Shown here: one piece after another, positions 36,143 to 62,778 of the stretch | Layout of the letters: each line of letters starts with the position of its first letter | Numbering within the stretch: position 1 is the stretch's first letter | Translations under genes and position numbers: made by a program | The notes under the pieces: generated by a model | The model's input: only the letters and a program-made list of their open reading frames with translations | Told to the model about the DNA's origin: nothing | The model's database searches: none | From: Acidimicrobiia bacterium | GTDB lineage: Bacteria > Actinomycetota > Acidimicrobiia > Acidimicrobiales > Bin134 | Direction of reading: 5' to 3' | NCBI GenBank assembly: GCA_022822265.1 | Contig: JAJECA010000045.1 | Coordinates: 1-64,000 of the forward strand | Length of the DNA: 64,000 nucleotides

Positions 36143-36216
36143 CCAGCCAATTTGGCCTTCCGGAGACTCAGTCGGCCCATGCACAAACCAAGTGGTGATG
36201 TACTGATGCTCATCGG

Positions 36217-36231
36217 TTATGCTGTGCATAA
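36217..36231 (+). promoter_or_regulatory. vapB copy 1 operator/leaderless promoter
   Basis: TTATGC-TGT-GCATAA is a perfect 6-bp inverted repeat whose last A is the first base of the vapB ATG. Its TATGCT (36218-36223) is placed like a -10 box with exactly seven bases to the ATG, as expected for a leaderless transcript. A VapB dimer bound here would block transcription. The same element precedes copy 2. Confidence 0.6.
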
Positions 36232-36482
36232 TGCGCACCACGATTTCCCTTGATGACCAGTTGGCAAAGCAGGTGCGGCGTGAGGCCGAAGCCAGTGGCC
36301 TCAGCGTGAGTGCCTTCATCGCCAAGATCTTGGGCGATGCGATAAAACGTCGAATTCCACCAGAAGCGCCGCCATTTCGACTGGTCACCGTCAAGGGCGT
36401 CCATCCCCGCCCGGGTGTAGACCTTGATTCACCCCGGGCGCTTGATGCCCTAGACGACGAAGATCGGTTCGGGCGTCGGTGA
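36231..36482 (+). CDS. vapB: VapB-type ribbon-helix-helix antitoxin, copy 1
   Basis: An 83-residue protein starting MRTTISLDDQLAKQVRREAE, a classic ribbon-helix-helix DNA-binding domain, followed by an alpha helix (SAFIAKILGDAIKRR) and a flexible acidic tail (LDALDDEDRFGRR) that would occupy the toxin's active site. I start at 36231 rather than the in-frame ATG at 36219 because RHH antitoxins begin with M-R-T-T and no Shine-Dalgarno is present before either. It neutralises the PIN toxin encoded 12 bases downstream and probably represses its own promoter through the palindrome at the start codon. Differs from copy 2 at about three residues. Confidence 0.85.
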   Translation: MRTTISLDDQLAKQVRREAEASGLSVSAFIAKILGDAIKRRIPPEAPPFRLVTVKGVHPRPGVDLDSPRALDALDDEDRFGRR

Positions 36483-36494
36483 CGGCTTGTTGAA

Positions 36495-36938
36495 ATGCTG
36501 CTTCCCGACGTCAACGTCTTGGTCTATGCCCATGTAGAAGACTCCACCCCGGAGCACGGCGAATACGCCGCTTGGGTTACCCGTATGGCGACGGGGCCTG
36601 AGCCCTTTGCCCTTTCTGTACTCGTCCTGTCGGGGTTCATTCGCGTCGTCACCAATCCAAGAGTGTTCCAACCACCCTCCTCCCTCGACCAGGCACTTGC
36701 GTTTGTGGCCTCGCTGGTAGAGCGCCCGACGGCACGCGTTGTTGGCCCTGGCCCAGACCATCTTGAGATTTTCGAGAGGATGTGCCGCGAGTCCGAAGCC
36801 ACAGGCAAGTTGGTGGCCGACGCCCAGCACGCCGCAGTAGCAGTGGAGCATGGCTGCACCATGGTCTCCACCGACTCAGATTTCAGCCGCTTTCCAGGGC
36901 TTCGCTGGCAACACCCGCTGAGACCAGCAGGCATGTAG
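36495..36938 (+). CDS. vapC: VapC-type PIN-domain toxin, copy 1
   Basis: A 147-residue PIN-domain ribonuclease. The first acidic residue is in MLLPDVNVLVYAHVE (Asp5), a conserved Glu/His follows in STPEHGEYAAW, and the C-terminal acidic cluster is in LVADAQHAAVAVEHGCTMVSTDSDFSRFPGL (Asp in VADAQ, TDSDF). The family cleaves tRNA or rRNA and arrests growth when freed from its antitoxin. It is transcribed with vapB. Nearly identical to copy 2 (four or so residue differences), so one antitoxin may control both toxins. It ends just before an inverted repeat terminator that contains the copied tail of the giant surface-protein gene. Confidence 0.87.
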   Translation: MLLPDVNVLVYAHVEDSTPEHGEYAAWVTRMATGPEPFALSVLVLSGFIRVVTNPRVFQPPSSLDQALAFVASLVERPTARVVGPGPDHLEIFERMCRESEATGKLVADAQHAAVAVEHGCTMVSTDSDFSRFPGLRWQHPLRPAGM

Positions 36939-36999
36939 CCCAAGGGCCGAGAACCGCTAGCGCCGAACCGCCGGCTGAAGGGCCGGGTCGGGTCCTTGG

Positions 37000-37051
37000 A
37001 AGGAGATCGGCCGGGGCGCGAGGGGGACTAGCGGCGGCGGCCGATCTCCTT
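37000..37051. terminator. 13-bp inverted repeat after vapC copy 1 (duplicated terminator)
   Basis: AAGGAGATCGGCC at 37000-37012 pairs perfectly with GGCCGATCTCCTT at 37039-37051. It is the same element as at 39943-39994, where it lies between vapC copy 2 and the end of the giant gene. Here the right arm encodes a meaningless copy of that gene's last codons (KEIGRRR-stop). No T-tract, so termination is inferred from the stem only. Confidence 0.6.
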
Positions 37052-37085: not shown

Positions 37086-37778
37086 CTAGTGGGCTGCTGT
37101 TCGGCGTTGGTGCAGGGCTTGTTCTAGCTGGGGGGCTCGGCTCTTGAGGTAGGCGATGATCTGGTCGCGGGAGTGGTCGAAGAGGGGGTCGGCGTCTTTG
37201 GCGGAGGGGAACCTCAGCTTGAAGACGAGTTGGTCGAGAGCGGCGTTGTCCCATTCGGCTCCGAATTTCTGAAGCCAGTAGAACAGGCCGTCCTCGAGGC
37301 GGTGCCCGCTGAGCTGGTCGATGGCGGCGAGGTCGATCAGGTCTCGAAGGGTGCTGCGCCAGCGGATCACGTCGAGCTTGAGGGCCAAGAGGTCTTGCAG
37401 CGACGCCACCGGCATCGCGTCAACCGTCGGCCCGTGGTGCAGCACCTCTACGTCAGCGGTGCGGGAATCGGCGTTGGGATCTTCGAATATGTGCACGCTC
37501 ACCCCGTCGAGGTGGGCATGAACCTCGTGCGGGCTCAACCCGATCATCGTGAATGACTCATCGGCCTGTTCCTCCAGCAGCGACCCCACAGCCGCAGTGT
37601 CGAGCGGACCGGGGGCCAAGACGTCGATGTCTTCGCTGACGCGGTGCCTCAGATGAATCGCCACCGCGGTGCCTCCGACCAGCACGCCGCTGCAATCGGC
37701 CGCGGCCGCCGCCGCTTTGGGCCACACGGCCCGCTGGCGATCGCCGATCACCTCTTGCCAATCGTCGATCTGGCCCAT
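37086..37778 (-). CDS. AbiEii-like nucleotidyltransferase, copy A
   Basis: A 230-residue protein. The nucleotidyltransferase core reads GVLVGGTAVAIHLRHRVSED (Gly35-Gly36), then Ile-Asp (Asp50, Asp52). A later KLDVIRWRSTLRDLIDLAAI block matches the K...R-D-(Y/L)-I-D-L motif of AbiEii/DUF1814 toxins, which transfer nucleotides (for some relatives, to tRNA) and stop growth. Residues 35-52 are almost identical in sequence and spacing to copy B at 58513-59307, although the rest has diverged. Its ATG overlaps the stop of the upstream zinc-ribbon gene (TGATG), so the two are made together. Longer frames upstream of 37778 are shadows. The final codons (QALHQRRTAAH) also occur as detached fragments near 55400 and 56340. 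Confidence 0.8.
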   Translation of the reverse strand: MGQIDDWQEVIGDRQRAVWPKAAAAAADCSGVLVGGTAVAIHLRHRVSEDIDVLAPGPLDTAAVGSLLEEQADESFTMIGLSPHEVHAHLDGVSVHIFEDPNADSRTADVEVLHHGPTVDAMPVASLQDLLALKLDVIRWRSTLRDLIDLAAIDQLSGHRLEDGLFYWLQKFGAEWDNAALDQLVFKLRFPSAKDADPLFDHSRDQIIAYLKSRAPQLEQALHQRRTAAH

Positions 37779-39061
37779 CAGGCCCCCGTTGCCGTCTGCC
37801 GGTTTGGTTGGCCCGATTCCGCTTCGACGAGTTCGGCGACGGCCAGCTCCACGCTCTCGGGGCATCCTGGGATGCCGGTCTGCGCCACCAGGGCGTCGAT
37901 CGGCAGACAGCGCAGGGCCCATCGGCGGGCGTCGAAGTCCAACAGCCTTCCGTTCAGCAGCCGGTTGGCCACCAGCAAGGCATCGCGGGGCAGCCGGATG
38001 TCGGCGGGGTCGGGGCCAGACCAGAACAGGTGCCACAGGTCGGGGGGCAGCGTCTCGGGGCACCGGGCGCGCCGAGCCCAGCGCATCATCGGCAGATAGG
38101 GGCGCAGCTCGTCGAGTTGGCCGCCAGGGGCCAGCTTCCATCTCAGTATCCGCCGGGTTCGGTGCTTCCAGGGCACCTCGACGAACGAGGAATCGACGTA
38201 TCCGTCGGCCTCCAGGCACCGCAGCACCCGCTGCGCGCTGCGACGGGCGATCCCCGCGGCGTCGCCGACCACCGCCGAATCGGCGCCCCCGAGATAGGAG
38301 CGCAAAGCGGTCAGCACCATCACCTCAGCCTCGGTGATATCGGGGCGCGGATGGGGCGGCGGCGGTGCCGGCAGCTGCTCGGGCGGAACAGGGGGAGTCA
38401 GCCACCGCTCCGCACCAGCAGGTGCTTCGAACATGCGATCAGCCGGCCTGTGCAGCCAGCCCAACCCAGACCCCCCTCCGGCCCGGTCGGGCCCCGCCCC
38501 GGCGCCCCCGCCTCCGGCCCGGTCGGGCCCCGCCCCGGCGCCCTCGCTGGCGGGCCGGTCGGGCCCCGCCCCGGCGCCCTCGCCGCTGGTCCGGGTGATC
38601 CGGGCCGCGAGCTGCTCAGGCCGGTCGTAAGGGCTGACCCGGCTTCCGCACACCGAGCGAATGCCATCGGCAATCGCACGCGCTGCCCCCGGGGAAACCC
38701 CGTCCAGCCTGCCCAGCGCCCCCGGCTTGACCGTGAACGGGCCATTGGCGGTGAGAACCGCGCCCACCGCCCACCCCCGCAAGGGAGCATTCCCATTGGC
38801 CAAAATCGTGCCCGTGCGCACGCTGTATCGCCGCCGACACCGGCCGCACCACCTCCTCCCATCGGCATCGGGCAACCGGCTCCCCGCCTCAGCCCCGCAC
38901 CGGGGACAAGCCGGCCCGCCCGGCCATCGGGCCTGCTCCAAGAACCGAGCAGCCGCCGGCTCACCGCCAAAAGCCCGGAAAGCGTCCTCAGCCGCAACAG
39001 CATTGGGATAGCACAACGACAGGCCTGCCACAGCCACAACCCTACCCCCGGGCGGTGACAC
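37778..39061 (-). CDS. zinc-ribbon (IS1595 transposase-type) and winged-helix protein, copy A; putative antitoxin of the AbiEii-like toxin
   Basis: A 427-residue protein of no family I can name. In order: a zinc ribbon with Cys52-x2-Cys55 (CPRCG) and Cys72-x2-Cys75 (WCGRCRRRYSVRTGTI), exactly the form found at the N-terminus of IS1595-group transposases; a helical segment; a low-complexity linker of about 40 residues with three GAGAGPDR repeats; a winged-helix region (EVMVLTALRSYLGG, then GIARRSAQRVLRCLEADGYV); and a C-terminal domain with PPDLWHLFWSG, then DIRLPRDALLVANRLL and WALRCLPIDAL. Copy B has the same order without the linker. Transposase catalytic residues are missing, so it is a DNA-binding protein, not a transposase. 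By analogy to AbiEi it is probably the antitoxin/repressor. The start is uncertain (GTG at 39061). Confidence 0.65.
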   Translation of the reverse strand: MSPPGGRVVAVAGLSLCYPNAVAAEDAFRAFGGEPAAARFLEQARWPGGPACPRCGAEAGSRLPDADGRRWCGRCRRRYSVRTGTILANGNAPLRGWAVGAVLTANGPFTVKPGALGRLDGVSPGAARAIADGIRSVCGSRVSPYDRPEQLAARITRTSGEGAGAGPDRPASEGAGAGPDRAGGGGAGAGPDRAGGGSGLGWLHRPADRMFEAPAGAERWLTPPVPPEQLPAPPPPHPRPDITEAEVMVLTALRSYLGGADSAVVGDAAGIARRSAQRVLRCLEADGYVDSSFVEVPWKHRTRRILRWKLAPGGQLDELRPYLPMMRWARRARCPETLPPDLWHLFWSGPDPADIRLPRDALLVANRLLNGRLLDFDARRWALRCLPIDALVAQTGIPGCPESVELAVAELVEAESGQPNRQTATGA

Positions 39062-39097
39062 TCATGCGCCGCAAACTAAAGATCGTGTCGCCAAAAG

Positions 39098-39132: not shown

Positions 39133-39160
39133 TGAGTGGTGATGTACTGATGCCAATCAG

Positions 39161-39175
39161 TTATGCTGTGCATAA
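39161..39175 (+). promoter_or_regulatory. vapB copy 2 operator/leaderless promoter
   Basis: The same TTATGC-TGT-GCATAA palindrome as copy 1, again ending on the A of the start codon, with TATGCT seven bases from the ATG. Sequence is conserved from about 39136 (AGTGGTGATGTACTGATG) to the ATG, with a few changes in the spacer. Confidence 0.6.
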
Positions 39176-39426
39176 TGCGCACCACGATCTCCCTTGACGA
39201 CCAGTTGGCAAAGCAGGTGCGGCGCGAGGCTGAAGCCAGCGGCCTCAGCGTGAGTGCCTTCATCGCCAAGATCTTGGGCGATGCGATAAAACGTCGAATT
39301 CCACCAGAAGCGCCGCCATTTCGCCTGGTAACCGTCAAGGGCGTCCATCCCCGCCCGGGAGTCGACCTTGATTCACTCAGGGCGCTTGATGCCCAAGACG
39401 ACGAAGAGCGGTTCGGGCGTCGGTGA
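39175..39426 (+). CDS. vapB: VapB-type ribbon-helix-helix antitoxin, copy 2
   Basis: An 83-residue paralogue of the gene at 36231, with the RHH start MRTTISLDDQLAKQ and acidic tail (SLRALDAQDDEERFGRR). The differences from copy 1 are confined to the toxin-binding tail, while the DNA-binding half is identical. It should therefore bind both operators, while its grip on the two toxins might differ slightly. Start reasoning is the same as for copy 1. The upstream DNA is a fragment of the carboxyltransferase gene rather than that whole gene. Confidence 0.85.
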   Translation: MRTTISLDDQLAKQVRREAEASGLSVSAFIAKILGDAIKRRIPPEAPPFRLVTVKGVHPRPGVDLDSLRALDAQDDEERFGRR

Positions 39427-39438
39427 CGGCTTGTTGAA

Positions 39439-39882
39439 ATGCTGCTTCCCGACGTAAATGTCCTGGTCTATGCCCATGTGGAACACTCCACCCCGGAGCA
39501 CGGCGAATACGCAGCTTGGGTTACCCGTATGGCGACGGGGCCTGAGCCCTTTGCCCTCTCCGTCCTCGTCCTTTCTGGGTTCGTTCGCGTCGTAACCAAT
39601 CCAAGAGTGTTCCAACCGCCCTCCTCCCTCGACCAGGCACTTGCGTTTGTGGCTTCGCTGGTAGAGCGCCCGACGGCACGCATTGTTGGCCCTGGTCCTG
39701 ACCATCTGGAGATATTCGAGAGGATGTGCCGCGAGTCCGAAGCCACCGGCAAATTGGTGGCCGACGCCCAGCACGCCGCAGTAGCAGTGGAGCACGGCTG
39801 CACAATGGTCTCCACCGACTCAGATTTCAGCCGCTTTCCTGGGCTTCGCTGGCAACACCCGCTGGCACCAGCAGGCATGTAG
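39439..39882 (+). CDS. vapC: VapC-type PIN-domain toxin, copy 2
   Basis: A 147-residue PIN ribonuclease nearly identical to copy 1. Visible changes are Asp to His in HVEDSTPEHG/HVEHSTPEHG, two Ile/Val swaps and Arg to Ala near the C-terminus (HPLAPAGM). The conserved acidic residues are unchanged, so both toxins should be active. It faces the end of the giant surface-protein gene, and the two are separated by a shared inverted repeat. This is probably the ancestral position, because here the giant gene is complete. Confidence 0.87.
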   Translation: MLLPDVNVLVYAHVEHSTPEHGEYAAWVTRMATGPEPFALSVLVLSGFVRVVTNPRVFQPPSSLDQALAFVASLVERPTARIVGPGPDHLEIFERMCRESEATGKLVADAQHAAVAVEHGCTMVSTDSDFSRFPGLRWQHPLAPAGM

Positions 39883-39942
39883 CCCAAGGGCCGAGAACCG
39901 CTAGCGCCGACCCGCCGGCTGAAGAGCCGGTTTGGTCCTTGG

Positions 39943-39994
39943 AAGGAGATCGGCCGGGGCGCGAGGGGGACTAGCGGCGGCGGCCGATCTCCTT
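39943..39994. terminator. bidirectional terminator between vapC copy 2 and the giant gene
   Basis: AAGGAGATCGGCC (39943-39955) and GGCCGATCTCCTT (39982-39994) form a perfect 13-bp stem. The loop holds the stop codon of the giant gene, and the right arm is its last codons. Serves the two convergent genes; lacks a T-tract. Confidence 0.6.
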
Positions 39995-42900
39995 CCAGAG
40001 GTCGACGATGATGCTGGTGATCTTGGCCCTGACGGCGGTCTCGGTGGCCGGGACCACGTCGGTGTTGGTGATCAAGGTGACGTAGAGGCAGACGAGGTTG
40101 ACGGTTCCCACCTGGGCCACGCAGTGTCGTCCGATTGCCTTGACGATGTATACGACGGCACTGGTGGTTGCGGCCCGGTCGGCCTCTGAGTCGTCGGGGG
40201 CAGCTTGGGTGAGGACGGTGCCGAGGGCTTCGTACACCAGTGTGGTTGCAGCAGTCGAGCTGGCTGGGGGCCGCTCGTCCTCGGGCACCTCGGGCACCTC
40301 AGGCTCCTCGGCATCCTCGTCGGGCTTGGGAGCGCCGCCGCCGGAGGGGCCACCGGCGGAGGGGCCACCGGCGGAGGGGCCGCCGCCGGGGGGGCTGGTG
40401 GTGGTGGTGGAGACGGAGGTGCGGGCTTCGGTCACAGGCACGGTCAGTCCGCCGGTCGCGGCGCCCGTCACGGTGATCGTGCCGCTTGCGCCGGGTATCG
40501 ACGGGTCGACAACGAAGCCGGTGCTGCCGGAGACCTCGCCGGCACGGATGGTGATCGGCACCGGGTACTCCACCACGGCGCCTTCGCCGGTGCCGGTCAG
40601 GCTCAGCGTCACGGTCACCGGCTCATCCGGCGCGGCACCGTCGACTTCCGCGGTCACGGTCACCAGGTTCGCCGCTGTGCGGGTCACCCTCAGGGTGATC
40701 TTCTGGGACGCCGCGTCATCGTCCTCCACAGTGATGGAGGCCGGTTGCACCGTGAACCCCGGTGTGCCGCTGTCGCCGGTGTCAGACAGGGCGACGCCGA
40801 TCACGATGTTCTCGTCGGGATCTTGCACCCGGTCGTCGGAACTGCCCTTCGCCGAGATGTTCAGGGTGACCGTCCCGGTGGTCTGGCCGGCGGGGATGGT
40901 GACGGTGGGCAGACTGCTCGGCACCGTATAGTCGACGCCGGCCTTTGCGCTGCCGCCCGGTCGCACCGCCAGCGGCACGCTCACCTCCGGATTCGCCCCA
41001 CCGCTCTGGGCAAAGATCCCCACTCCAGACAGGAGGTCGAGCAGGCTCCCGAAGAGGCTGGGGGTGAGCTGGCGCGTGGCGGTGACCGTGACCGAGGCCG
41101 AGCTCCCTTCGGTCACGCTGCTGGAGACGCTGAGCATGATCGTCGGCGCGTCGTCGTCGGCAAGGTAGATCGACGCCGGGTTCACGGTGAACCCGGCCAG
41201 CGAGCCGCCCAGGGTGATCGTCTCGTCGCCTTCGTGTGGGTCGCCCGGCGGTGGGGGGCCGTCGTTGATCGGGGTGATCTGCAAGCCCGTCGCCGTGCCG
41301 CTGAGCTGGCCGGCGGGGATCCTCACGCTCCCGGGCAGCGTGCCGCCCAAGGTGTTGTAGTCGGTGCCGCCGTCGGCGGAGCCGACCAGCGATGAGGCGA
41401 GCGTCACCACGGTGTCAGTGCCGCGGGGGATGGTGCCCGACAGCGTGGCGGTCACCACCACCGCTGTGTCGCCGTCGCGCTCGTCGATGCGGGCGGGGCT
41501 CATGCTCAGGTCGATGACATCGGATGCCGAACCGGCGTCGTCGTCGTCGACGGTGATCTGGACTGCCGGCACACTTAAATCCTCCACCCCGCCCGACGCG
41601 GCGCCACTGATGGAGATCGTCTCGTCTCCCTCGTCGATGCGGTCGTCGAGCATGTTGAGGCTGAACCTCTTGGTGCCCGATACCTCGTTGGCGGGGATGG
41701 TGACGGTGATCGCGCCCGGACTGGTGTAGTCGGTGCCCGGGACAGCACTGCCGCCGAAGCTCAGCGTCACGGTGGTCGCGCTCGTGGGCGCGGCGTTGTT
41801 GACTGTCGCGGTGGCGGTCACCAGGGCGGGGCCCCGGTTCTCGGCCACCGTGGTGCGGTCGAGGCTCAGCGTGACCTGATCGGAGGCGGTGTCGTTGTCG
41901 CCTATCGTAAAGGTGACCGGTACGACGGTGAGCCTGGCGGCCCGGCCGCCGAGGATGACGGTCTCGCCGCCAGTTTCGAGCAGCCGGTCGTCGTACCGGC
42001 CCGCCGCGTTGACGGTCACGGTTCTCTCCGCGCTCGATTCGCCGGCGGGGATGCTGATGGTCGACAGCCTGAGAGCGGCGTAGTCGACGCCTGCGGTGGC
42101 GGTGCCGCCCACAACCGCCAGAGGCACGTTCACCGCCGATGAGGCGTCGTCGCCGACGGCGCGCGTGGCGGTGACCGTGATCTCGCCCGATTCACCCTCT
42201 GCCGCCGTGCCCGAGACGCTCAGCGTGACCGTCGGGACGTCGTCGTCGGCCATGGAGATCGACGCGCCGTTCACCCTTAACCCGGTGGCGGTGCCGCCCA
42301 ACGTGATCGTCTCGGGGCCTTCCGCGTCGGTGTCCTGAGCCGGGGTGATAGAGAATGTGGCGGTGCCGCTGGAGCTGCCCGCCGCAATCGTCACGCTCCC
42401 GGGCAGCGAACCGCTCAAGGTGTAGTCGGTGCCGTCGCCTCTGGCGGTGCCGCCCAACTCCTCGTCGAGCGTCACCACGGTGTCGTCGGTGCGAGTGGCA
42501 TCGCCGCTGAGCGTGGCCGTCACCGTCACCATGGCGGCCGAACCGCCCTCGACAAGCGGCGCAGAAGCGCTCAGGGCCAGGTCGACCACCCTGGATGCGG
42601 TGTCGTCGTCGACGATGTCGAGTTCAGCCGCCACCACCGTGAGCCCAGAGGCGGTGCCGCCCACGGTGATCGTCTCGTCGTCTTCGTCGAGGTTGTCATC
42701 GACCGGGCTGATATTGAACGTGCCCGTGCCCGACACCTGACCGGAGGGAATGGTCACGGCGATCGTGCCCGGATCGGTGTAGTCGATTTCCAAGGTCGCG
42801 CTGCCGGCCCCGCTGCCGCCGAAGGTCAGCGTGACCGTGGCGTCGCCGGCGGCTGCGGCGCCGTTGAGCGTCGCGATCACGGGCACCGAGGCGGTGCCCC

Positions 42901-45900
42901 CGCCCTCGCGCACGCTGGCGCGGCCCAGGCTCAGCGCCACCTCAGTTGATGCAGCGTCGTCGTCGACGATGGAGATACCCACGGGAGCCACGTCGAAGCC
43001 CGCCGCGGTGCCTCCGAGCTCGATGGTCCGGCCGCCGTCACTCTGGCGATCAGCGATGGTGGCGATGGTCACCGAAGCGGTCGCGCTGGCCCTGTTCGCC
43101 GGGATGCGGATGGTGGGAAGCCTCGGCGAGGCGTAGTGGTCGCCGATTGTGGCCGTGCCGCCGGTGATCGCCAGCGGCAGGCTCACCGCGCTGGAGTTGA
43201 CCGACACGTCACGCGTCGCGGTGATCCGGAACGTGCCCGACTGTCCTTCGGCCACGCTGCGGCGCGCGCTGTCGTCGTCTCCGGGGCTTGGCTGCGGCGA
43301 CACCCGCTCGGCGGTCAAGGTGATCTCGGGCTGGTCGTTGTCGGCCAGCGTGACCGTTGCGTCGTTCACCGTGAACTCGGTCAGCGAGCCGCTCAGCGTG
43401 ATCGTCTCATCACCCTCGGCCACGGTGTCGAGGGTCGGGGTGATCATCCACCCCGTGACGCTGCCGCTGAGCTCGTCGGCGTCAATGGTCACCGACGACG
43501 GTAGCCCGGAGCTGGTGTAATCGGCGCTAGACGCGGTGCCGCCCAGGCTCGAGTCGAGCGCTATCACCTTGGGTGTGCCGTGGGCTGCGACACCCCTCAG
43601 TGTGGCGGTGATGGTGACCGCCGTGGCATCCGCCTGCGTCTGCGTGCCCGAGGTCTCGGTGTCCTCGTCGATGCTGGCAGGCGACACGCTCAGGTCGATG
43701 ACCGAGGATGCGTTGTCGTCGTCGGTGATGGTGAAGGTGAGGCTTGCGGGGGTGGTGTTCAGCGTCAGCCCGCCCGACGAAGTTCCGCTGCTGATGACGA
43801 TCGTCTCGCCGGTGCCCTCGTCCACGATGTCGTTGACCGGGTTGATCGTGAACTTCGATGTGCCCGATGTCGTCTCTTTGTCGATCAAGATGCCGACCGA
43901 TCCCGGATCGGCGTAGTCGCCGAGGGCGGTCGCGGTGCCCTTGGTGGCGGTGCCGGCAAAGGTCAGCGCAATGGCCACGGCCGAGGAGGGCGCGCCGTCG
44001 TTGACCTCGGCGACGATGGTCACTTCGACGGCGTTGCCGCTCTCGGACACGCTGGTGGGGCCCATCACCAGGGTGATCGCGGTGGACGGGTTGTCGTCGT
44101 CGTTGATGGTGATCGTGGCGGGGTTAACGGTGAACCCGGTTACGGAGGCGCCGATCACGATCGTCTCGCCTCCGGTTTCGATCAGCCGGTCCTCGTTCGT
44201 TCCGATGATCAACGTCAAGTCTGCGCTGGCCGCATTGGCAGGGATAGTGATGGTCCCCGGGTTCAGCGCCACCACATGGTCGCGGCCGCGAGTCGACGTG
44301 GACGAGGTCAGCAGTGCCAGCGGCACTCGCACCTCATCCGAGTTGTCAGCCGTGTTGCGCGTGGCCGTGAACACAAACTGGGCGTTTTCTCCCTCGTCTA
44401 TGTTTGTGTGCATGGTGTTTCCCTGCGCCGAGCGGCGGGTGCTCAGCGTTATCTGCGGGGCGTCGTCGTCGGCCAGCGTTATCGACGCCGGGTTCACCGT
44501 GAAGCCGGTCAGCGAGCCGCCCAGCGTGATGGTCTCGTCGCCCTCGGAGACGGCGTCGTTGGTGGGAGTGATGTTGAACGCCGTGGCGTCGCCGCTGGAG
44601 CTGCCCGCCGCAATCGTCACGGAGGTGGGCAGAGTGGTGGGCACCGTGTAGTCGGTGCCTTTGGTGGCCGAGCCCCCCAGCGATCCCGTGTCGAGCGTGA
44701 CCGTGGTGGGGGAGTTGCGGGTGGCGTCGCCCTGAAGCGTGGCAGTGAACGTGACCGAGACAGCCGAGCCTTCGTCCTCGTCGATGCTGGCGGGGTTGGC
44801 CGTCAGGGTGATCTCGGTGGAGGCGGTGTCGTTGTCGACGATCTTGATGGTCAGGCTCGCCGGGGTTACCGCCAGCGACAGCCCGCCCGAGGAGGTGCCG
44901 CCGCTGAACGTGATCGTCTCATGCGGGCGCAGCGGGTTCCCGTTCTGGTCGACGGTGGCGTCGCTCTCATCGATGTTGTCGTTTACAGGGGTGATGGTGA
45001 ACGACGTCTCGCCCGACACCTTGTTCGCAGGGATCGTGACGGTGATCGTTCCCGGGTCGGAATAGTCGCCCGTAACGGTGGCGGTGCTCTTGGTGGCAGT
45101 GCCCCCCAGGGTGAGCGTGATCGTGACGTCGCTGGTAGGGGCGCCGTCGTTGACCGTGGCGGTGGCCTTGACGGTGGTGCCGCCGGCATCCTCGTTCAGC
45201 TCGGTGCGATCCAGCGCCAGCGTGATCTGTGTGGAGGCGTTGTCGTTGTCGGTAATGGTGACGGTGGCCCCGGTCACGTCGAACCCGGTCGCAGTGCCGT
45301 TGACGATGATGGTCTCGCCGCCCTCGATCAAGCGGTCTTCGCACACCGTCACCGACAGGTCGAACGTGCGGCTGGTTTGGCCTGCGGAGATCGTCACCGC
45401 AGAGGGGGAGGCCGCGTAATCGTTGCCAGCAGTGCCGCACGTCCCCCGGGTCGCGGTGCCGCCCAAGCTTATGGTCACGGGGGTATCGGAGTTGCGGGCC
45501 CCGTCGTCCAGGGCCACCTTGACCGACATCGTCTTGGTCCTCGCCGCCTCCGACAGGCCGGTCTGGACGCCCATCGTTCCGGTGTCAGTGTCCTCCACGG
45601 TGATGGTGATGGTGGGGTTGTCGTTCTCTCCGATCGCCAGGTTGGTGGCGTTGATGGTGAAGTTCGCCAAGGTGCCGCCGGCGATCCTGATCACCTCGTT
45701 GGCTGCGGTGCCGGTGCCCTCGTATTCGTCGTCGTCTCGCGGGTCGATCTTGAAGGTCGCCGTTCCCGTCGACGACTCGGCATCAATGGTGATCGACCCC
45801 AGCGAGATGGGAAGCGTCACCGCGGAGGGCGCCGTATTGTCGAACTTCTTCAGCTGGTAGTCGCCGGAGGTGGCGTTGAGGCTGGGCATGGCGCTGAGAC

Positions 45901-48900
45901 TGGACGCGGCCACTATCCGCACCGGCACAACGGTGTTGACGTTGCGGGTCTTGGTGCCCGACAGGGTGGCGGTGACCGTCACCGTCGCCTCGCCGCTGTG
46001 GTCCTCGTCCACGCTGTCGGGGTTCACGCTCAAGTTGACGGTGCTGGACGCATTGTCGTCGTCGTCGATACGCAGCGTGGTCTGAGTGGCGTCGCCGGTC
46101 AGACCGCCCGTCAGGGCGGCGGTGAAGATGATGGTCTCGCCGGTGCCCTCGTCGACGTGGTCCTGGCGGGGGTCGATCTTGATGTTGGTGGTGGCCTCGA
46201 CGGTTCCTGCGGCGATTGTGAGCATGGCGGGCTTGGTGATCTGGGCGTCGGCGGCGTTGGTCATCGTGTAGTCGCCCGAGCTGGTGCTGCCGCCGCGGGT
46301 GGCGGTGCCGGTCATGGCTTTGAACGTCACCGTCACCGGGCTGGTGAGCGTGGCGCCGTTCAGCTCGGCCTTCACCTCGATCTCGGTGGCGCCGCCGGCC
46401 TCGCGCAGCGCCGCCGACGGGTCCAAGCTCAGGGTCACCCCGGTGGACGCGGTGTTGTCGTCGTCGGTGAGGTTGATGCGGTGTGTCCTGACCCCGAAAT
46501 CGTCGTGGCTGCCGCCGATGATGATGGTCTCGGTGCCCTCCATGTGCCGGTCTTGGATGGGGGTGATGGTGAACGATTTGGAGCCGGTGGTCTGGCCGGC
46601 GGCGATGGTGAGGGTGCCGGGGGTGGCGGTGTAGTCGGTGCCCTTGGTGGCGCCGCCCGACAGCGTCAGAGCCAAGCTGACTCCCCCGGCGGGTGCCGCA
46701 TCCCCGATCGTGGCTTTCACCGTCACCGACGTCGCGTTCGCGCTCTCAGCAATGGTGGTGGTGGTGGAACTCAAGGTGAGCGGCGGCGCGTCGTCGTCCA
46801 ACAGGTTCAACACAGCCTTGTTCACCGTGAACGCCTCACCGGTCGGGCAGTTCCCCGCCACAAGGGCCACCTTGCAGGCCGAGCCGGTCAGCTCGATCGT
46901 CTTGTCGCCGTCGGAGACGGAGTCGTCCACCGGGGTGATCGTGAAGGTGGTGGTGACGCTGCCGCTGGAGCTGCCCTCACTGATCGTGACGCTGCCCGGC
47001 AGCGAGCCGCCCAGCGTGTAGTCGTTCGAGGCGCCCGCAGTGGCCGTGCCGCTCAGCGCCGACGCGAGATCCACCTCGGTGTCGACGGTGCGGGTTGCCG
47101 TGCCCGACAGCGTGGCGGTCACCGCCGTCACCGTGACCGCCGAGCCGGCGTTCTCGTTGACGCTCGTCGGCGTGAAGCTCAGGTTGATGGTGCTCGACGC
47201 GGTGTCGTCGTCGGTGATCCACAGCGTGGCGGGCGTCACCTTGCTCGCCCCGGTGCCGGTGAGCGCGCCCGACAGGGTGGCGTCGAAGATGACGGTCTCG
47301 CCGACGCCCTCGTCGAGAGTGTCCTGGCGAGGGTCGATCTTGACGGTGGTCTCGCCCGATGCGGAGTTGGCGGCGATGGTGATGGCCGCGGGCTTGGTGA
47401 TCTGGGCGTCGGCGGCGTCGGTCATCGTGTAGTCGCCCGAGCTGGTATCGCCGGCCCGGGTGGCAGTGCCGTCCATGGCATTGAACGTGACCACCACGTC
47501 CTGCGTGAGCGCGGCGCCGTCGAGCGTGGCGGTGACCGTCACTTCCTGGGCGCCGGTGGCGCCCTCGCCCACCGCGGCGGGCGAGGTCTCGAGCGTCACG
47601 CTGGTGGCAGGCGCGTCGTCGTCGTTGAGGGTGATGGTCACAGGCACCACCCCGTGCCCGCTCACCGTGGCGCCCAGCACGATCGTCCTGGGGCCGTCGG
47701 CCACGTTCTCGGACGGGCTGGTCACCGCCATCGTCGCTGTCGCGGTGGCCGCGTTCTGCGTGAACGAGATCGTCGGCGGCGAGAACGCGGTGTAATGGGT
47801 GCCGCTGGTGGCGGTCGACGTCGACTGCACCGCCAGCGGCACGTCCAGCACAGCAGAGCTCTCAGCCACCACACGCGTCGCGGTCACCGTGAATGTGTGG
47901 GTGCTGCCCTCATTGAGCGTGGCCTGGTCCAGGCTCAGGGTGATCGACGGCTGGGCGTTGGTCATGCCGTCCGCCGACGCCGTCCAGTCGCTCTTGCCCT
48001 CGCCGTTGCTGGCGCGCACCTGCACCCGGTACGCGCTGTTCGAGTCCAGGCCCGTGATCACGGTGGAAGTGGCCGAGCCCCTGCTCAGCGCCTCGGTCCA
48101 CATCTGAGCGGGAGTGGCCGTCGAGTCCGGGTCGCTGCTGCCCTTGAAATAACGCACGTCGTAGTCGTTGATGGCGGGCCCGCTGTTCGCCGCGGGCGCC
48201 GTCCAGGACACCTTCAGCGTGGACGACGACGGCTCGGTCACCGTCACGCTGGTCGGCGGCCCGCTGGGCGGCTCCTCCACGTCGCCCACGTTGATCGTCA
48301 CCGCGATGGTGTCGTCGATGGTCGCGGTCTCCTCGGTCACGCCGAGCTCGGTCTCGCCGTCGGTCACCCGTGCGGTCACCGAGTAGCTGGCCTTGGTCTC
48401 GTGGTTGAGCGTGACGCCCGTCTTCACCTTGATCTCGCCCGTAGTCGAGACGATCGTGAACGTGGCCGCGTCGGTGCCCGCCAGCGAATACGTCAAAGTG
48501 TCGCTGTCGCCGTCGGTCGCCGCCACGGTGCCCACCGACGCCGCGTCGGCGTTGTTCTCGTTGATCGTCAGGGTCTTCGACGCGCCGTCGGTGAACGACG
48601 GCGCGGTCACCTTGGTCACGGTCTGGCTGCTGATGTTCGCCACGTTGTTGCCCACGGCGTCGCGGATCGGCTTCTGGCTCGGGCTCGTCGCAGTGCTGTC
48701 ATAGGTGTACGCCAGCGTCACCGTGTGGCTCTGGCCCGGAGTGGCGCTGGTGTCCAGCCGCACCGTGCTGCCCGCCACCGTCACGCTGTTCACCGTCGCC
48801 ACGGAGCCGGCGACCGTGTAGGTGAACTGGCTGGCGAGGGGCGTCGAGCCGGTGTCCAGCGCCTCGTCGAACACCAGCACCACGTCGTCGCCCACGCTCA

Positions 48901-51900
48901 CCGCCGACTCCACCTCCGGCGCCTTGGTGTCGATCAGGTGCCCCGAGTCATGCGCCAGCCCGACATGAGCCAGGTTCGCGTCGGCATCGGTCGCCGACTT
49001 GATCGTGCCGCTGTTGAGCGCCAGCGTGTTCGTGAGAACCGCCACGCCCACAGTCGACTTGTTCGGCGACTCCACCGGCCCATAACGGAACACCAGCGTC
49101 TTGGTGCCGCTGCCCGAGTTATACGCCGCCGCCTTCTCCCCGAACTCCGGATCGAACATGATCTTCAACGACGGCGTCCCGCCGGTCGAGTCCACCGTCA
49201 CGTTCGCGTCGAACGTCACCGACACATCGATGAAATCGCCCGCGACATACGTCTTGTCGGTCCCCGGGTCCGACGTGATCGCCACCCCGGTCACCACCGG
49301 CGGCGTGATGTTCGCCACCGGCTTGCCCGTGAACGGCGCCGCCTGATTCCCAGCAGCATCCCGCACCGGCAACCCGAACCCCGCCGTCGGCTTGGAGTAA
49401 TTCACCGTCAGCGTGTCGCCCGCCTTAATGACCCTGCCCCCGAGCACTTTCGTCGACACCACAGCACCGCTTATCGACGACGCGGAAGTCAACGCGCCGT
49501 GCCCGCCCGTCGACCCGTCCGGCGCGGTCCAGTTCAAAAAGAAACTGAACCCCCACACAGGATCATCAGCATCCAACGCCTCGCTGAACGTGATCTTCAG
49601 ATCATCAGTCACCTCGTCAAACGTCGCCGACTCGAACACCGGCGCCGTCGTGTCAGGCGTAGTGCCCTTCACGCGGATCACCAGGCTGCCAGTGCCGCTA
49701 CCAGACCACGCCGAATTCTCGAAGGCTCTTAAGGTGTCGGCTATGCCCCACCCAGCCTGACTGCCGGAGTCCTCAGCGCCGTCGTCAGTGCTTGTCAGGA
49801 CCCCAGTCGTAGCCCTGACAGCCAGCCAATACTCAGTGCTCGCCGACAGCACCGTGCCCGCAGGGGCAGTGAACGTGTTGACTCCCGTCGAAGGCGTCGC
49901 CGGGCCCGCCAACGCCACTACACGATTGTCGTCCGACGGCGCGTCGGCCGAATGCACCGACACCGACACCGACGACGGCGCCGTGCCGAATTTCACTTCC
50001 ACCGTTCCCAACACGTAGCCCTCGACATTGGCGCCGGTCGTAAACGCCTGCGCGAAACCGGAGCGACTGCTGCTCAAGCTGAGGTTCCCCTCGGCGCCTG
50101 TATGAGCGACATTGGACACCAACACCTCACTGCCCGCCAGCGCCGCCTGCGTGGTTACGCCCACCGACTCCGTCCACGAAGACTTGGTGCCGCCGACGCT
50201 GACGCGCACCTGCACCCGGTATGACGTGTTGGCCGTGAGCCCGGTGACGCTCACCGACGTCGCAGTGCCCGGGTCGGGCCATGCGCCCGTCTCGCCCTCT
50301 TCCACCCAGTCGGCCTCCGTTGCCGGGTCGGCCGTGCCCTGGAACCAGCGCACGTCGTAGTCGTCCACCATTCCCTCTGCCGCAGTCCAGCTCACCGTCA
50401 GGCTCACCGGCGTGGTGGCCGCCGCCGCCAGCCCTTGGATGGGATGGTCGTCGTCGGTGATGCGGATGAAGGCAGGGTTCACGCCGAATCCGGTCGCCGT
50501 TCCCGACACCTCGATGGTCTCCGTGTCCTCGAGCACGCTGTCGTCGACGGGGTCGAAGACCAGTGTGGCGGTGCCTGAGGTCTGGTTGGCGGGGATCGTC
50601 ACCGCCAGCGTGCTCGACGTGGTGTAGTCGCCGGAGCTGCTGCGGGTGGCGGTGCCGCCCAGCGTGAGCGTGACCGTGATGGAGGTGCTCTGGGCTTGGG
50701 CCACCGAGGCGGTGATCGTGACCGACGGGTTGGAGGCGGCGTCCTCCGCGAACGTATCAGGGCTCGCCGTGAGCGTGATCTTCGGCAGGAAGAACGCGCG
50801 CTGATCGGCGATGCTGATGCCGAGGCCCTTGAGGGCGGGGTACTGCGAGCCGGTGCCGAAGTCCCATTTGTCGGTGGACCAGCCGTGGTAGGTGTCGGCG
50901 GCCATCGAGCCCGGCGCGGTCGGCGTCTGGAGCTCGTTGGTGGTCTTGGCGGTGCCCAGCGCGCTGGTCGACTGGCCGCTGGCGCCGGTGTCCCAGTAGC
51001 TGTTGGCGGCCGTCACGGTCGCCGATTTGCTGCCCACCAGGCCGCCGACATTGGACGCGCTGGCGCCTCCGGCCGTCACGCTCCCGATCGAGAAGCTGTT
51101 CGACATCGATTGATTCCCGACCGGTGTGAATGTGCCCGCCAGGCCGCCGACGTTGGACGCGTTGGCGCCCCCGGCCGTCACGCTCCCGATCGAGTAGACA
51201 TTTTGGGTGGTTGAAAGAAGTGACCCCGCCAAGCCGCCGATGTTCGACGCCGAGGCCCCGGTGGCGGTCACGTTCACCGCCGAGAAGGCGTCAACCAGCC
51301 CTCCAGAGGATTCCCCAATCAGGCCGCCGATGTTCGACGCCGAGGCCCCGGTGGCGGTGATCGTCCCAGTGGCCCACACGCCGCGTATGGAGGCGGAGCT
51401 GACGTGGCCGGCCAACGCGCCGACCTGAGAGCCGGGACTCGTGATGTCCACGTCCTCCAGCCCGAGGTCCAGGTCCTGAGTGGAAAAGTCGACACTACCG
51501 AACAGCCCGACCGGGCCGGTGGCGCCGTTGATGAACAGCCCCGAGATCTTGCGGTCGTTGCCAATGAAGTTTGCGTTGTACCTCGCATCGGACGACCCGA
51601 TCGGCACCCAGCCGGCGCCGGTGTTGTAGGGGGCGACGTCGAGGTCGATGTCGGCAGTCAGCTCATAGCCCCCGCAAGCCCTCGAGCCATGGGTGGCGCG
51701 GTTGTTGCACTGGCGGCCGGCGGCGTTGGGGAACGCGGCGGCGTAGCCGGCCTGGTTGGCCGCGGTCTCGGTGTCGTCGGCGCCGGTGTCGGCCACGCCG
51801 TCGCCGTTGAGGTCGAAGCGGATGGCGTTGAGCTTGGCGGCCGAGTCGATATCGATCAGGTTGTCGTCGCCGGCGTTGTAGAAGATGCCTGTGGTGCTGA

Positions 51901-58512: not shown

Positions 58513-59307
58513 TCATTCCCGCCTGTGCGGGTCAGCGCGGATCGAGCGGAGTGTTTCGTCGAACTCGTCGGTGAGTCCGAGCTCCATGGGGGGATCGAAT
58601 GGCTCAGGGTAGGAAGGGGCTGTCGTTTCGATTCTCATCTGATGCAGGTGCCGTTCCACATCGATGGCGCGCTTCGCTAGGTATTGGAGTATCTCGTTGC
58701 GTCGATCTTCGAAGACCCCGTCGGCCGCAAGGCTGCCTGGATCTCTTAGGCGATCAACGATTCTTGCGGCATCTGTATGGGCAGGAGTGATCCCGTACCG
58801 GTGGAGATGAAAGCGAAGGCCGTCCTCGAGTGTGTACGGGCTGGTTGTGTCAATGGCAACCAAGTCGATGTAATCCCGCAATTTCGGCCGGTACAAGATG
58901 ACGTCCATTTTGGAGGCCACCAGGTCGGGCAGCGATGCCACTCTCATCCCATCGATCTCGATGGGGCTCTGGATGGTGATCACATGGCCCGGATTGGCGC
59001 CCCTATGGGGAGTTCGGAACACCTCCACCAACACACCGCGGACCCTGGCGCGCAATTGGTCGGTCCCGCTCTCCAAGACGTCGATTTGCCCTACCGCCTT
59101 CTTGAGCTTTTTGGCGAGTTGATCTCCTGAGAACGAGCCGGCGGTCATGTAGTCGAGGTCGAATGAGACACGATGCCGCAGATGTATGGCCAAGGCAGTC
59201 CCCCCCATTAGGCAGCCCTCCATTGTGCGGGTGGCTTCGCCGAGAATGGGCCATACCTCGCGCATCTCGGGGGAGAGCAGCTTCTCCCATGCGTCGATCT
59301 CAGGCAA
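58513..59307 (-). CDS. AbiEii-like nucleotidyltransferase, copy B
   Basis: A 264-residue protein with GCLMGGTALAIHLRHRVSFD (Gly35-Gly36, Asp50) then Leu-Asp52, the same spacing as copy A, and KMDVILYRPKLRDYIDLVAI matching the AbiEii K...RDYIDL motif. Expected to be a growth-arresting nucleotidyltransferase. About 30 residues longer at the C-terminus than copy A (EPFDPPMELGLTDEFDETLR). It starts eight bases inside the end of the zinc-ribbon gene, so expression is coupled. Overall it is diverged from copy A except for the catalytic block and the C-terminal helix region, so the two modules are old paralogues or separate arrivals, unlike the near-identical vapBC copies. Confidence 0.8.
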   Translation of the reverse strand: MPEIDAWEKLLSPEMREVWPILGEATRTMEGCLMGGTALAIHLRHRVSFDLDYMTAGSFSGDQLAKKLKKAVGQIDVLESGTDQLRARVRGVLVEVFRTPHRGANPGHVITIQSPIEIDGMRVASLPDLVASKMDVILYRPKLRDYIDLVAIDTTSPYTLEDGLRFHLHRYGITPAHTDAARIVDRLRDPGSLAADGVFEDRRNEILQYLAKRAIDVERHLHQMRIETTAPSYPEPFDPPMELGLTDEFDETLRSIRADPHRRE

Positions 59308-60295
59308 CGGCCCGCTCCGCTAGCGCCGCATCGATCTTAGAGGCAAGAGGCTCCATGTCGTATCCGCGCATTGTCCTGCACTGTCGGAGAGCGTCGACAG
59401 GCAAGTGCTGCAAGGCCCAAACTCGCCCGACGGGATCAGGTCCGTCCAACAGGTTGCACGCCACCTCGAAGGAGTCTTCTGGCAACCTCAGGTCTTTGGC
59501 GTTTGAGCCGCTCCAGAACATGCCCCACAACTCGGGAGGGACTCCATCTGGGCATGTGTGGGCCACAGGCTCAGGCCTCCAGGGCAAAAACGCCATTGCC
59601 GTGGCGGATTCCTCGGTCAGCGCGAGTGCCCACAGAGCAACTGTCAGCGATCCGTAGCCCCAAGGGACGCTCGCGTCTTGCTCGCAGCGGGCATAGCCGC
59701 GCTCAGCCAAGAACTCCAAACAGCCTCTGGTGTGCCCGACAGTGAGGCCCGCTGCCTCGGCGACCTGCTCTACAGAAGTGCCCCTGAGCCTGCTGCGCAG
59801 CACTGCCAGAACGGCCCGCTGCCCGCTGGTCAGATCGGCGATGGGGTTGTCCTCGGGCTGGAGGGTGGCCGGCAGGCGGGCGCGCATCGCCTTGGTCGGA
59901 TCGTGATGCTGGGTGAGCAGCGCGGCGAGACGACTCTCCCCCGGCGGCTTCTCCGACATCTCCAATGCAGCTGAGACGCGGCGAGACGCCGGAGCGGAGA
60001 TGCCCAACTCGCGCGCCAATACTGGGGGGCGAATGTCCCATGACCAGATCGCGGCCAGCCATTTGGCGAGCCCTATCTTCGAACCGTGCATGGCGGTGTC
60101 TGTTGTCGCGGTGAAATCACTCCGACAGGAGCTGCACCGCCACTTCAACCGAGGCCCTCGGGACCTGACACCAGGGTCGGCGGTGCCGCACTTGGGGCAT
60201 ATAACCCCAGCGGGCCAGCGGAATCCCACTAGGTACTCCTCGGCGGAAGCCTCATCAGACGCTGGCGGAGACAGGGCGTCGGCGACCGCTGACAT
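59300..60295 (-). CDS. zinc-ribbon (IS1595 transposase-type) and winged-helix protein, copy B; putative antitoxin
   Basis: A 331-residue protein. The zinc ribbon has Cys33-x2-Cys36 (VICPKCG) and Cys54-x2-Cys57 (KWRCSSCRSDFTATTDTAM), a close match to the IS1595 transposase N-terminus, followed by KWLAAIWSWD and an HTH (PVLARELGISAPASRRVSAAL). Then comes a winged helix (GQRAVLAVLRSRL, SVEQVAEAAGLTVGHTRGCLEF). The C-terminal domain has PPELWGMFWSG and DLRLPEDSFEVACNLL, WALQHLPVDAL, matching copy A. No DDE transposase core is present. Always upstream of and overlapping the nucleotidyltransferase gene; by analogy with AbiEi it should be the antitoxin and repressor. Lacks the Gly-rich linker of copy A. 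Confidence 0.68.
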   Translation of the reverse strand: MSAVADALSPPASDEASAEEYLVGFRWPAGVICPKCGTADPGVRSRGPRLKWRCSSCRSDFTATTDTAMHGSKIGLAKWLAAIWSWDIRPPVLARELGISAPASRRVSAALEMSEKPPGESRLAALLTQHHDPTKAMRARLPATLQPEDNPIADLTSGQRAVLAVLRSRLRGTSVEQVAEAAGLTVGHTRGCLEFLAERGYARCEQDASVPWGYGSLTVALWALALTEESATAMAFLPWRPEPVAHTCPDGVPPELWGMFWSGSNAKDLRLPEDSFEVACNLLDGPDPVGRVWALQHLPVDALRQCRTMRGYDMEPLASKIDAALAERAVA

Positions 60296-60376
60296 GCCTC
60301 CAGCCTAACAGTTGTGGGGTTTATTCGTTCAATAATTGTGCGCCAGACATCCCGGTTCCCCCAGCACCGGCCAGGG

Positions 60377-62698: not shown

Positions 62699-62778
62699 AG
62701 AATGTGCAAGGTACACGATTTATAGGTCCAAGGTTTAAGTCTAATAAGTCGATGTCAAAAAAACGTTCTCCACAAAAC

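Follow-up and report, generated by a model that had tools for sequence, protein, structure and literature searches.

Two overlapping gene pairs in an Acidimicrobiia contig

The window that we analyzed is a 64,000-nucleotide stretch of an Acidimicrobiia bacterium genome (assembly GCA_022822265.1, contig JAJECA010000045.1, positions 1 to 64,000), and it carries two copies of a two-gene unit in which a regulator-like partner is encoded ahead of an AbiEii/DUF1814 nucleotidyltransferase (NTase). Copy A occupies 37086-39061 on the (-) strand. Its partner open reading frame (ORF) spans 37778-39061, or 427 residues counted from the listed GTG at 39061, and its NTase gene (37086..37778, (-) strand, 230 residues) starts with an ATG that has one base in common with the partner's TGA stop, giving the junction TGATG. 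The partner likely begins at the GTG at 39031-39029 and not at 39061, in which case its extent would be 37778..39031. Copy B, at 58513-60295 on the (-) strand, consists of a 331-residue partner (59300..60295) and an NTase gene (58513..59307) that starts with TTG and overlaps the partner by 8 bp. Both pairs have the bicistronic layout of AbiE, with the regulator gene first, the NTase gene second, and the two genes overlapping. A sequence-only reading of this DNA had described the coupled unit of copy A and its recurrence at 58.5 kb; both points held, and the genome as a whole proved to contain four such pairs rather than two.

The copy A partner is composed of an IS1595-type zinc ribbon with a helix-turn-helix (HTH), a Gly/Ala/Pro-rich repeat linker, a winged helix, and a DUF6922-like C-terminal domain (C-domain), and the copy B partner of a zinc ribbon with HTH, a winged helix, and a DUF6922-like C-domain. 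The ribbon matched PF12760 (Zn_ribbon_IS1595) at 35.8 bits in copy A and 44.9 bits in copy B (cut-off, 25.4). In the copy A partner, Cys52, Cys55, Cys72, and Cys75 and the string PPDLWHLFWSG were found where the sequence-only reading had placed them, and the transposase-like part was found to continue past the ribbon into the following HTH. Both NTases scored over the PF08843 (AbiEii) cut-off of 22.5 bits (copy A, 41.7 bits), in agreement with the AbiEii core first recognized by inspection. The winged helix, likewise proposed from the letters, was below threshold in the window partners (TrmB, 18.1 bits; IclR, 18.1 bits) and over its Pfam cut-off in relatives (L042, IclR at 28.4 and MarR_2 at 28.5 bits; L078, MarR_2 at 45.6 bits). 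No Pfam family up to an E value of 1 covered the C-terminal "PPxLWxxFWSG" part of the window partners, no NCBIfam model came near its cut-off in the window proteins, and a PADLOC scan returned weak AbiEii models on the window NTases only. By eye, the copy A linker (38470-38590, between HTH and winged helix) is GC-rich and built of GAGAGPDR-type units. The two partners share 36% identity over the winged helix and C-domain and 29% over the ribbon part, and the two NTases share 37%; because these identities are so low, we rejected a recent duplication of copies A and B.

The partner and the NTase occur together and diverge together

A profile of the NTase had exactly four matches in its own genome, all four paired with a partner (the stop reported in the copy D match is the gene's own end). 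Copies C and D lie on another contig; copy C has a zinc-ribbon head, and copy D has a ribbon-helix-helix (RHH)-like head in the ribbon's place. When 148 related genomes were searched with a profile built from the four partners, 39 gave some match, a count that includes transposase-only and winged-helix-only matches. From this search we analyzed the matches that reached the C-domain, together with seven transposase-only loci as controls, and left out most of the transposase-only and winged-helix-only ones. A scan of genome contigs yielded 10 loci, nine of which belong to assemblies labeled Acidimicrobiia, Acidimicrobiales, or Acidimicrobiaceae. Beyond this order, zinc-ribbon partners (L149 and L150) turned up in one other family of the class. 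The assembled set came to 55 distinct partner cores, each comprising winged helix and C-domain. One Pseudomonas locus (L046) was set aside, its match covering only 21 residues.

To measure the association, we counted identical C-domain segments once, excluded L046, and asked for 400 bp or more downstream. This left 63 of the 64 distinct C-domain proteins evaluable (L033, with 178 bp, fell short), and 62 of the 63 adjoin a same-strand NTase ORF or fragment, which lay downstream in 61 and upstream in one (L084). None of 22 control loci had an adjacent NTase. Four PF21956 (DUF6922) loci without a match to the C-domain model stand outside the 64: L077, which has an NTase frame in its locus, and L079, L082, and L086, which have none and are among the controls (0 of 19 without them). 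Because the loci were fetched by the partner or by PF21956, and never by the NTase, the count is not circular; many of its rows are related to each other. An accidental neighborhood of partner and NTase was rejected on these numbers (62/63 versus 0/22), which agree with the view of the sequence-only reading that the association is not fortuitous. Among 12 later distinct loci outside model building, nine have a separate NTase ORF and one (L156) has a partial NTase in the same ORF as its C-domain. In both L156 and L064, a single frame encodes the C-domain together with a piece of the NTase, the remainder being missing, and they are apparently decayed copies rather than fusions.

The two proteins also diverged in step. 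Distances between partner cores and between NTases were correlated with an r of 0.935 over 50 pairs, and none of 2,000 permutations was as high (best, 0.14); the test used the 50 of 55 partners with a nearby NTase segment scoring >150 bits. Motifs I to IV of the NTases were present in 47 of 50 paired NTases. Two partners, L155 and L157, consist of the C-domain only and adjoin full NTases of 199 and 216 bits. Since such partners make the DNA-binding front dispensable for pairing, the comparison points to the C-domain as the part that faces the NTase.

No carriage by plasmids or phages emerged. The copy B partner hit 177 plasmid records by tblastn, none with 80% cover, and the 20 matches listed were confined to residues 4 to 149; the NTase had two distant matches among plasmids, and the C-domain-only partner L155 had none. 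The phage collection gave one weak match, to the ribbon, and a viral scan with the NTase gave none. On these plasmid, phage, and viral searches, phage or plasmid carriage of the module was rejected.

The constant C-terminal domain resembles DUF6922

Across the family, the winged helix and the C-domain form the constant part, and the N terminus varies. The C-domain is ~80 residues long and has the DUF6922-like pattern "P..(F/L)....W........L...........(V/I)...(L/I)L...D......W" of a domain of ~50 to 80 residues. An hhalign comparison of the 37-core family alignment with five canonical DUF6922 proteins gave a probability of 93.5 (E value, 2.3e-7) over 58 C-domain columns. As negative controls against the NTase alignment, the zinc-type profile gave a probability of 0.4 and the canonical DUF6922 profile 0.1. 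The full-length relative L078 scored 27.9 bits for DUF6922, over the Pfam cut-off of 27, alongside its MarR_2 match. Separate searches of phylum genomes with PF21956 (246 genomes) and with the core profile (296 genomes) retrieved the same protein in G253, G157, G357, and G188, of which only the protein of G253 is over the DUF6922 cut-off, and the core profile found the canonical DUF6922 protein of G278 at an E value of 2.6e-9 through its C-domain columns. Five canonical short DUF6922 proteins (36 to 53 bits, L075 included) adjoin NTase frames, two of which are partial. A sequence search of the PDB with the C-domain or with DUF6922 gave no credible relative.

By these comparisons, the C-domain is most likely a divergent DUF6922, the homology being very likely for the family as a whole and likely for the window proteins. 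The sequence-only reading had spoken of an undescribed toxin-antitoxin (TA) type, and this wording was too strong. DUF6922 is a family that is also found by itself beside AbiEii NTases. A literature search, in which subscription papers were outside the scope, returned no paper on DUF6922, PF21956, AbiEii with DUF6922, or modular antitoxins of this sort.

The head is exchangeable, and one form of it is shared with IS1595 transposases

The 55 cores follow 27 heads of the IS1595-type zinc-ribbon kind, 4 RHH heads, and 12 other HTH heads; 10 cores have no recognized head, and 2 (L024 and L094) are unlabeled. Labels lacking a Pfam scan were given by eye. Among the RHH heads, L044 was over the NikA-like cut-off (30.8 versus 27), L042 just under it (26.7), L004 below threshold, and L045 assigned by similarity; the 12 other HTH heads resemble MerR or excisionase proteins below threshold only (4 of the 12 scanned). 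On the core tree, the RHH heads formed one clade (support, 100/99), as did the MerR-like heads (99/96), and the ribbon group was one clade with 99/95 support once the long branch L059 was omitted. Because three headless members are nested inside the ribbon clade, loss as well as gain of heads along the core tree is likely. Our first trees, of core and ribbon, drew two ribbon groups; two independent captures were rejected as a claim, since a single clade was not rejected by the approximately unbiased test (P values of 0.198 for the core and 0.324 for the ribbon). We thus claim at least one ribbon capture and no more than that.

Relatives of this head occur in the same genomes, where all seven ribbon-only ones are IS1595 transposases with a DDE domain (PF12762). 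An HTH-half model built from the 27 zinc-type partners found all seven transposases (E values of 1.6e-7 to 3.3e-4 in a search of seven sequences), so the homology spans both ribbon and HTH. Among the 20 plasmid matches listed for the copy B partner, nine are annotated as IS1595 family transposases, and the others as hypothetical, as nothing, or not at all. The N-terminal part of the zinc-type partners is, by this similarity, homologous to IS1595 transposases without their catalytic domain. One could read the zinc-ribbon protein as a truncated transposase, an accessory or remnant that regulates or helps an IS1595-type element, and the homology of ribbon and HTH to transposases of the same order and of plasmids is what such a reading has in its favor. 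It is contradicted by the absence of PF12762 (DDE_Tnp_IS1595) from all five zinc-type partners scanned (the two of the window and three others), by the continuation of winged helix, C-domain, and NTase where the ribbon, which is not the constant part, is missing, and by the CxxC...CxxC pattern, which is kept in 27 of 27 zinc-type partners and, like their diverse clades, is unlike a remnant. We regard this explanation as largely refuted and give it almost no weight. The sequence-only reading had suggested that the antitoxin slot is filled by a protein that took its ribbon from a transposase; the IS1595 homology behind that suggestion is real, and the ribbon is one of several heads rather than the defining feature.

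The Acidiphilium multivorum plasmid pACMV1 (L113, 75085-77107) offers surroundings that would allow ribbon capture: after an AbiEii-type NTase come an unannotated frame of ~90 residues and, immediately behind it, an IS1595 transposase gene. The short frame is similar (27.7%; E value, 3e-4) to the small partner that accompanies an NTase on a Campylobacter plasmid.

Two kinds of AbiEii-type pairs in related genomes

PF08843 was found in 67 of the 148 related genomes, and we examined 30 high-scoring loci. None of the 30 had the C-domain, and their NTases scored at most 21.3 bits on the module NTase model, versus 162 to 270 bits for nine new paired NTases outside model building. Twelve of the 30 fetched loci were examined for their upstream genes, and two (L144 and L146) were set aside for upstream frames that seemed spurious; of the ten classical partners that remained, five were over an AbiEi cut-off and seven over the cut-off of either AbiEi or DUF6088, a family that is AbiEi-like. 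These genomes thus harbor two kinds of AbiEii-type pairs side by side.

The same data bear on the possibility that the module is an ordinary AbiE system, its partner being either an AbiEi antitoxin (COG5340) that has diverged or a member of COG4861. The gene order, the overlap, the succession of winged helix and C-terminal domain, and the PF08843 NTase are all AbiE-like, and the winged helix of L092 matched AbiEi_4 at an E value of 0.05, the sole AbiEi hint seen. Set against this, no AbiEi family matched the window proteins or was among the 18 families that matched any of 37 cores at an E value of ≤0.005, a clear AbiEi match being an outcome that would have told against the sequence-only reading; genes upstream of classical AbiEii do match such families, and the C-domain and NTase scores set the classical loci apart. 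We consider this explanation quite improbable.

Promoter regions and surroundings

In copy A, a candidate -10-like box, TAGGGT (39039..39044, (-) strand), precedes the probable GTG start by 7 nt, as in a leaderless-type promoter. Among zinc-type genes, 26 of 27 have a candidate TANNNT box 6 to 7 nt ahead of a start codon in frame (L014 has an additional candidate box at 9 nt), which is the arrangement of leaderless actinobacterial genes. The nine members of the copy A subgroup, copy A included, all have a start codon at this spacing. Over the 36 pairs that they form, median identity was 0.70 to 0.80 in the last 60 bp and ≤0.35 beyond; in the other two subgroups a weaker conservation edge (0.38 to 0.60) lies near -40. 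In these alignments, module and promoter stay together while the upstream surroundings change. Copy B has a promoter-like TTGAAC-N19-TAGGCT (60302..60332, (-) strand; -35 box by eye) 6 nt before its ATG, and its subgroup has similar boxes. A candidate operator in the conserved promoter region of copy A is the inverted repeat GGCGACAC-N23-GTGTCACC (39054..39092, (-) strand), which is imperfect there and perfect in L011. A strong operator claim was rejected, as repeats that stood out from shuffles were confined to L018 (1 shuffle of 100 did as well), L011 (3), and L013 (7).

Copy A is flanked on the opposite strand by two VapBC cassettes (36191-37051 and 39135-39994; 861 bp, 94.4% identical), each with an RHH antitoxin, a PIN toxin, and, by eye, an inverted repeat of GGAGATCGGCCG behind the toxin gene. 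A PemK/MazF-like toxin gene (L006:5400-5717; PF02452, 60.6 bits) is located between copies C and D. With these neighbors, the surroundings of copy A and of copies C and D are TA-rich places. Two long frames were also noted by eye: a giant 4,522-residue frame at 39971-53539 on the (-) strand, whose many repeats resemble extracellular modules of the Calx-beta or cadherin-like kind, and a 779-residue frame at 60377-62716, in which long Ala-Glu-Pro repeats occur together with RCC1-like "CWGxNxxGQ" ones.

A putative toxin-antitoxin-like module

Given the pairing, the co-divergence, and the exchange of heads, we propose with moderate confidence that these genes form a TA-like AbiEii/DUF1814 module, in which the DUF6922-like domain would restrain the NTase and the head and winged helix would autoregulate the promoter. 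The NTase, as a polymerase-beta-type enzyme, would probably stop growth by adding nucleotides to an RNA, as its superfamily suggests, and the likeliest target would be tRNA acceptor ends, as with MenT. The ~80-residue C-domain of the partner would hold the enzyme in check, and the winged helix, together with the exchangeable head, may bind and repress the module's own compact leaderless promoter. DUF1814 NTases have been described as toxins with four motifs, the same motifs being required for AbiEii toxicity (PMC3985639). For AbiEi, the C-terminal domain alone is reported to suffice for antitoxicity and autoregulation to need the full-length protein (PMC7319586). The anatomy of the module partners matches this AbiE logic: the front, predicted to bind DNA, would serve autoregulation, and the C-terminal part would deal with the toxin.

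Several observations weigh against this proposal. One of the 63 evaluable partners (L058) has no NTase and also no winged helix; L158 and L164, among the 12 later loci, have no NTase; and in at least 9 of the 62 (L013, L027, L048, L062, L064, L069, L076, L085, and L094) the NTase frame is broken or partial. The motif exceptions are L013 and L065 (both in motif IV) and L078 (motif III lysine), possibly inactive toxins beside kept partners. The window NTases score ~40 bits on PF08843, versus up to 142 for the best classical AbiEii. Regarding the C-domain, the zinc-type C-domains alone aligned only moderately with canonical DUF6922 in hhalign (probability, 61.8; E value, 7.7e-5; 54 columns), and the window partners had no PF21956 match up to an E value of 1 (cut-off, 27 bits). 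Single-sequence Pfam scans of the 37 cores gave DUF6922 in none at an E value of 0.005 and in three at ≤10 (best, 0.0099), and L079, a 661-residue protein just over the DUF6922 cut-off at 27.6 bits, has no adjoining NTase. As for the promoter, the copy A inverted repeat was equaled by 68 of 100 shuffles, inverted repeats were not significant in most of 21 upstream regions tested, and the TANNNT boxes were counted with no chance control.

Alternatively, the pair might not be a TA system at all: the NTase could transfer nucleotides in a housekeeping or regulatory role, and the partner could simply be the transcription factor that activates or represses it in response to a signal. A partner with two DNA-binding parts does look mainly like a regulator, and DUF1814 proteins without a linked antitoxin exist (PMC3985639). 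This fits poorly with the patchy presence of the partner among the related genomes, transposase-only and winged-helix-only matches included, and with C-domain-only partners that keep the NTase without any recognized DNA-binding part. A selfish or defense module is a better fit to the four unlike copies in this genome, the broken copies, the sharp promoter edge beyond which the upstream surroundings change, and the TA neighbors (VapBC twice at copy A, PemK/MazF between copies C and D). We judge the housekeeping interpretation unlikely.

A broader version of the TA-like proposal is that the DUF6922-like domain is the general antitoxin domain of a separate DUF1814 branch with plug-in heads, and that the ribbon head still recognizes both its own promoter and the ends of IS1595. 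We offer this as a long shot. Toxin expression would then depend on whether a transposon is present or active, a form of growth control that listens to a jumping gene.

DUF1814 NTase toxins are widespread, and their partners beyond AbiEi and a few MenA proteins are poorly known. The present comparison provides one DUF1814 branch with a defined partner domain, found with several DNA-binding heads and alone, and with natural proteins that allow the predicted toxin-facing part to be separated from the DNA-facing part. It is also a clear example of how DNA-binding parts of transposases have been put to new use in a regulator that is, by our proposal, TA-like.

Relation to known systems

Among the closest known systems is AbiE, a type IV TA and abortive infection system, with which the module shares the bicistronic order with the regulator first, the overlap, the DUF1814 motifs I to IV, the winged helix, and, as predicted from sequence alone, a C-terminal domain as the probable antitoxin part. 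Unlike AbiE, its C-domain matches no AbiEi family and is DUF6922-like instead, an extra exchangeable head precedes the winged helix, and its NTases form a separate group. Known NTase partners include COG5340 and COG4861, and a COG4861-COG4849 pair has been named (PMC3985639 and PMC3968373). In two accounts of MenAT from M. tuberculosis (PMC10435456 and PMC11375011), MenT toxins modify tRNA, and the MenA antitoxins belong to several unrelated families, of which MenA1 is very short and lacks a DNA-binding domain. The module resembles MenAT in joining a DUF1814 toxin candidate to partners of varied build, some lacking a recognized DNA-binding part; it differs in that the MenA proteins described there have neither DUF6922 nor a transposase zinc ribbon. 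With DUF6922 (PF21956) proteins it shares the domain pattern and the adjoining NTase, and whereas canonical members are mostly short and stand alone, the module domain is fused behind a winged helix and head. With IS1595-family transposases it shares the N-terminal CxxC...CxxC ribbon and the following HTH, and it differs in having no DDE domain and in the grafting of this head onto a regulator. In type II antitoxins with exchangeable DNA-binding domains, the toxin-facing part is kept while the DNA-binding fold is swapped. The module partners have a comparably exchangeable DNA-binding part, and they differ from these type II antitoxins in that the swap includes a transposase-related zinc ribbon and in that the predicted toxin-facing part is DUF6922-like.

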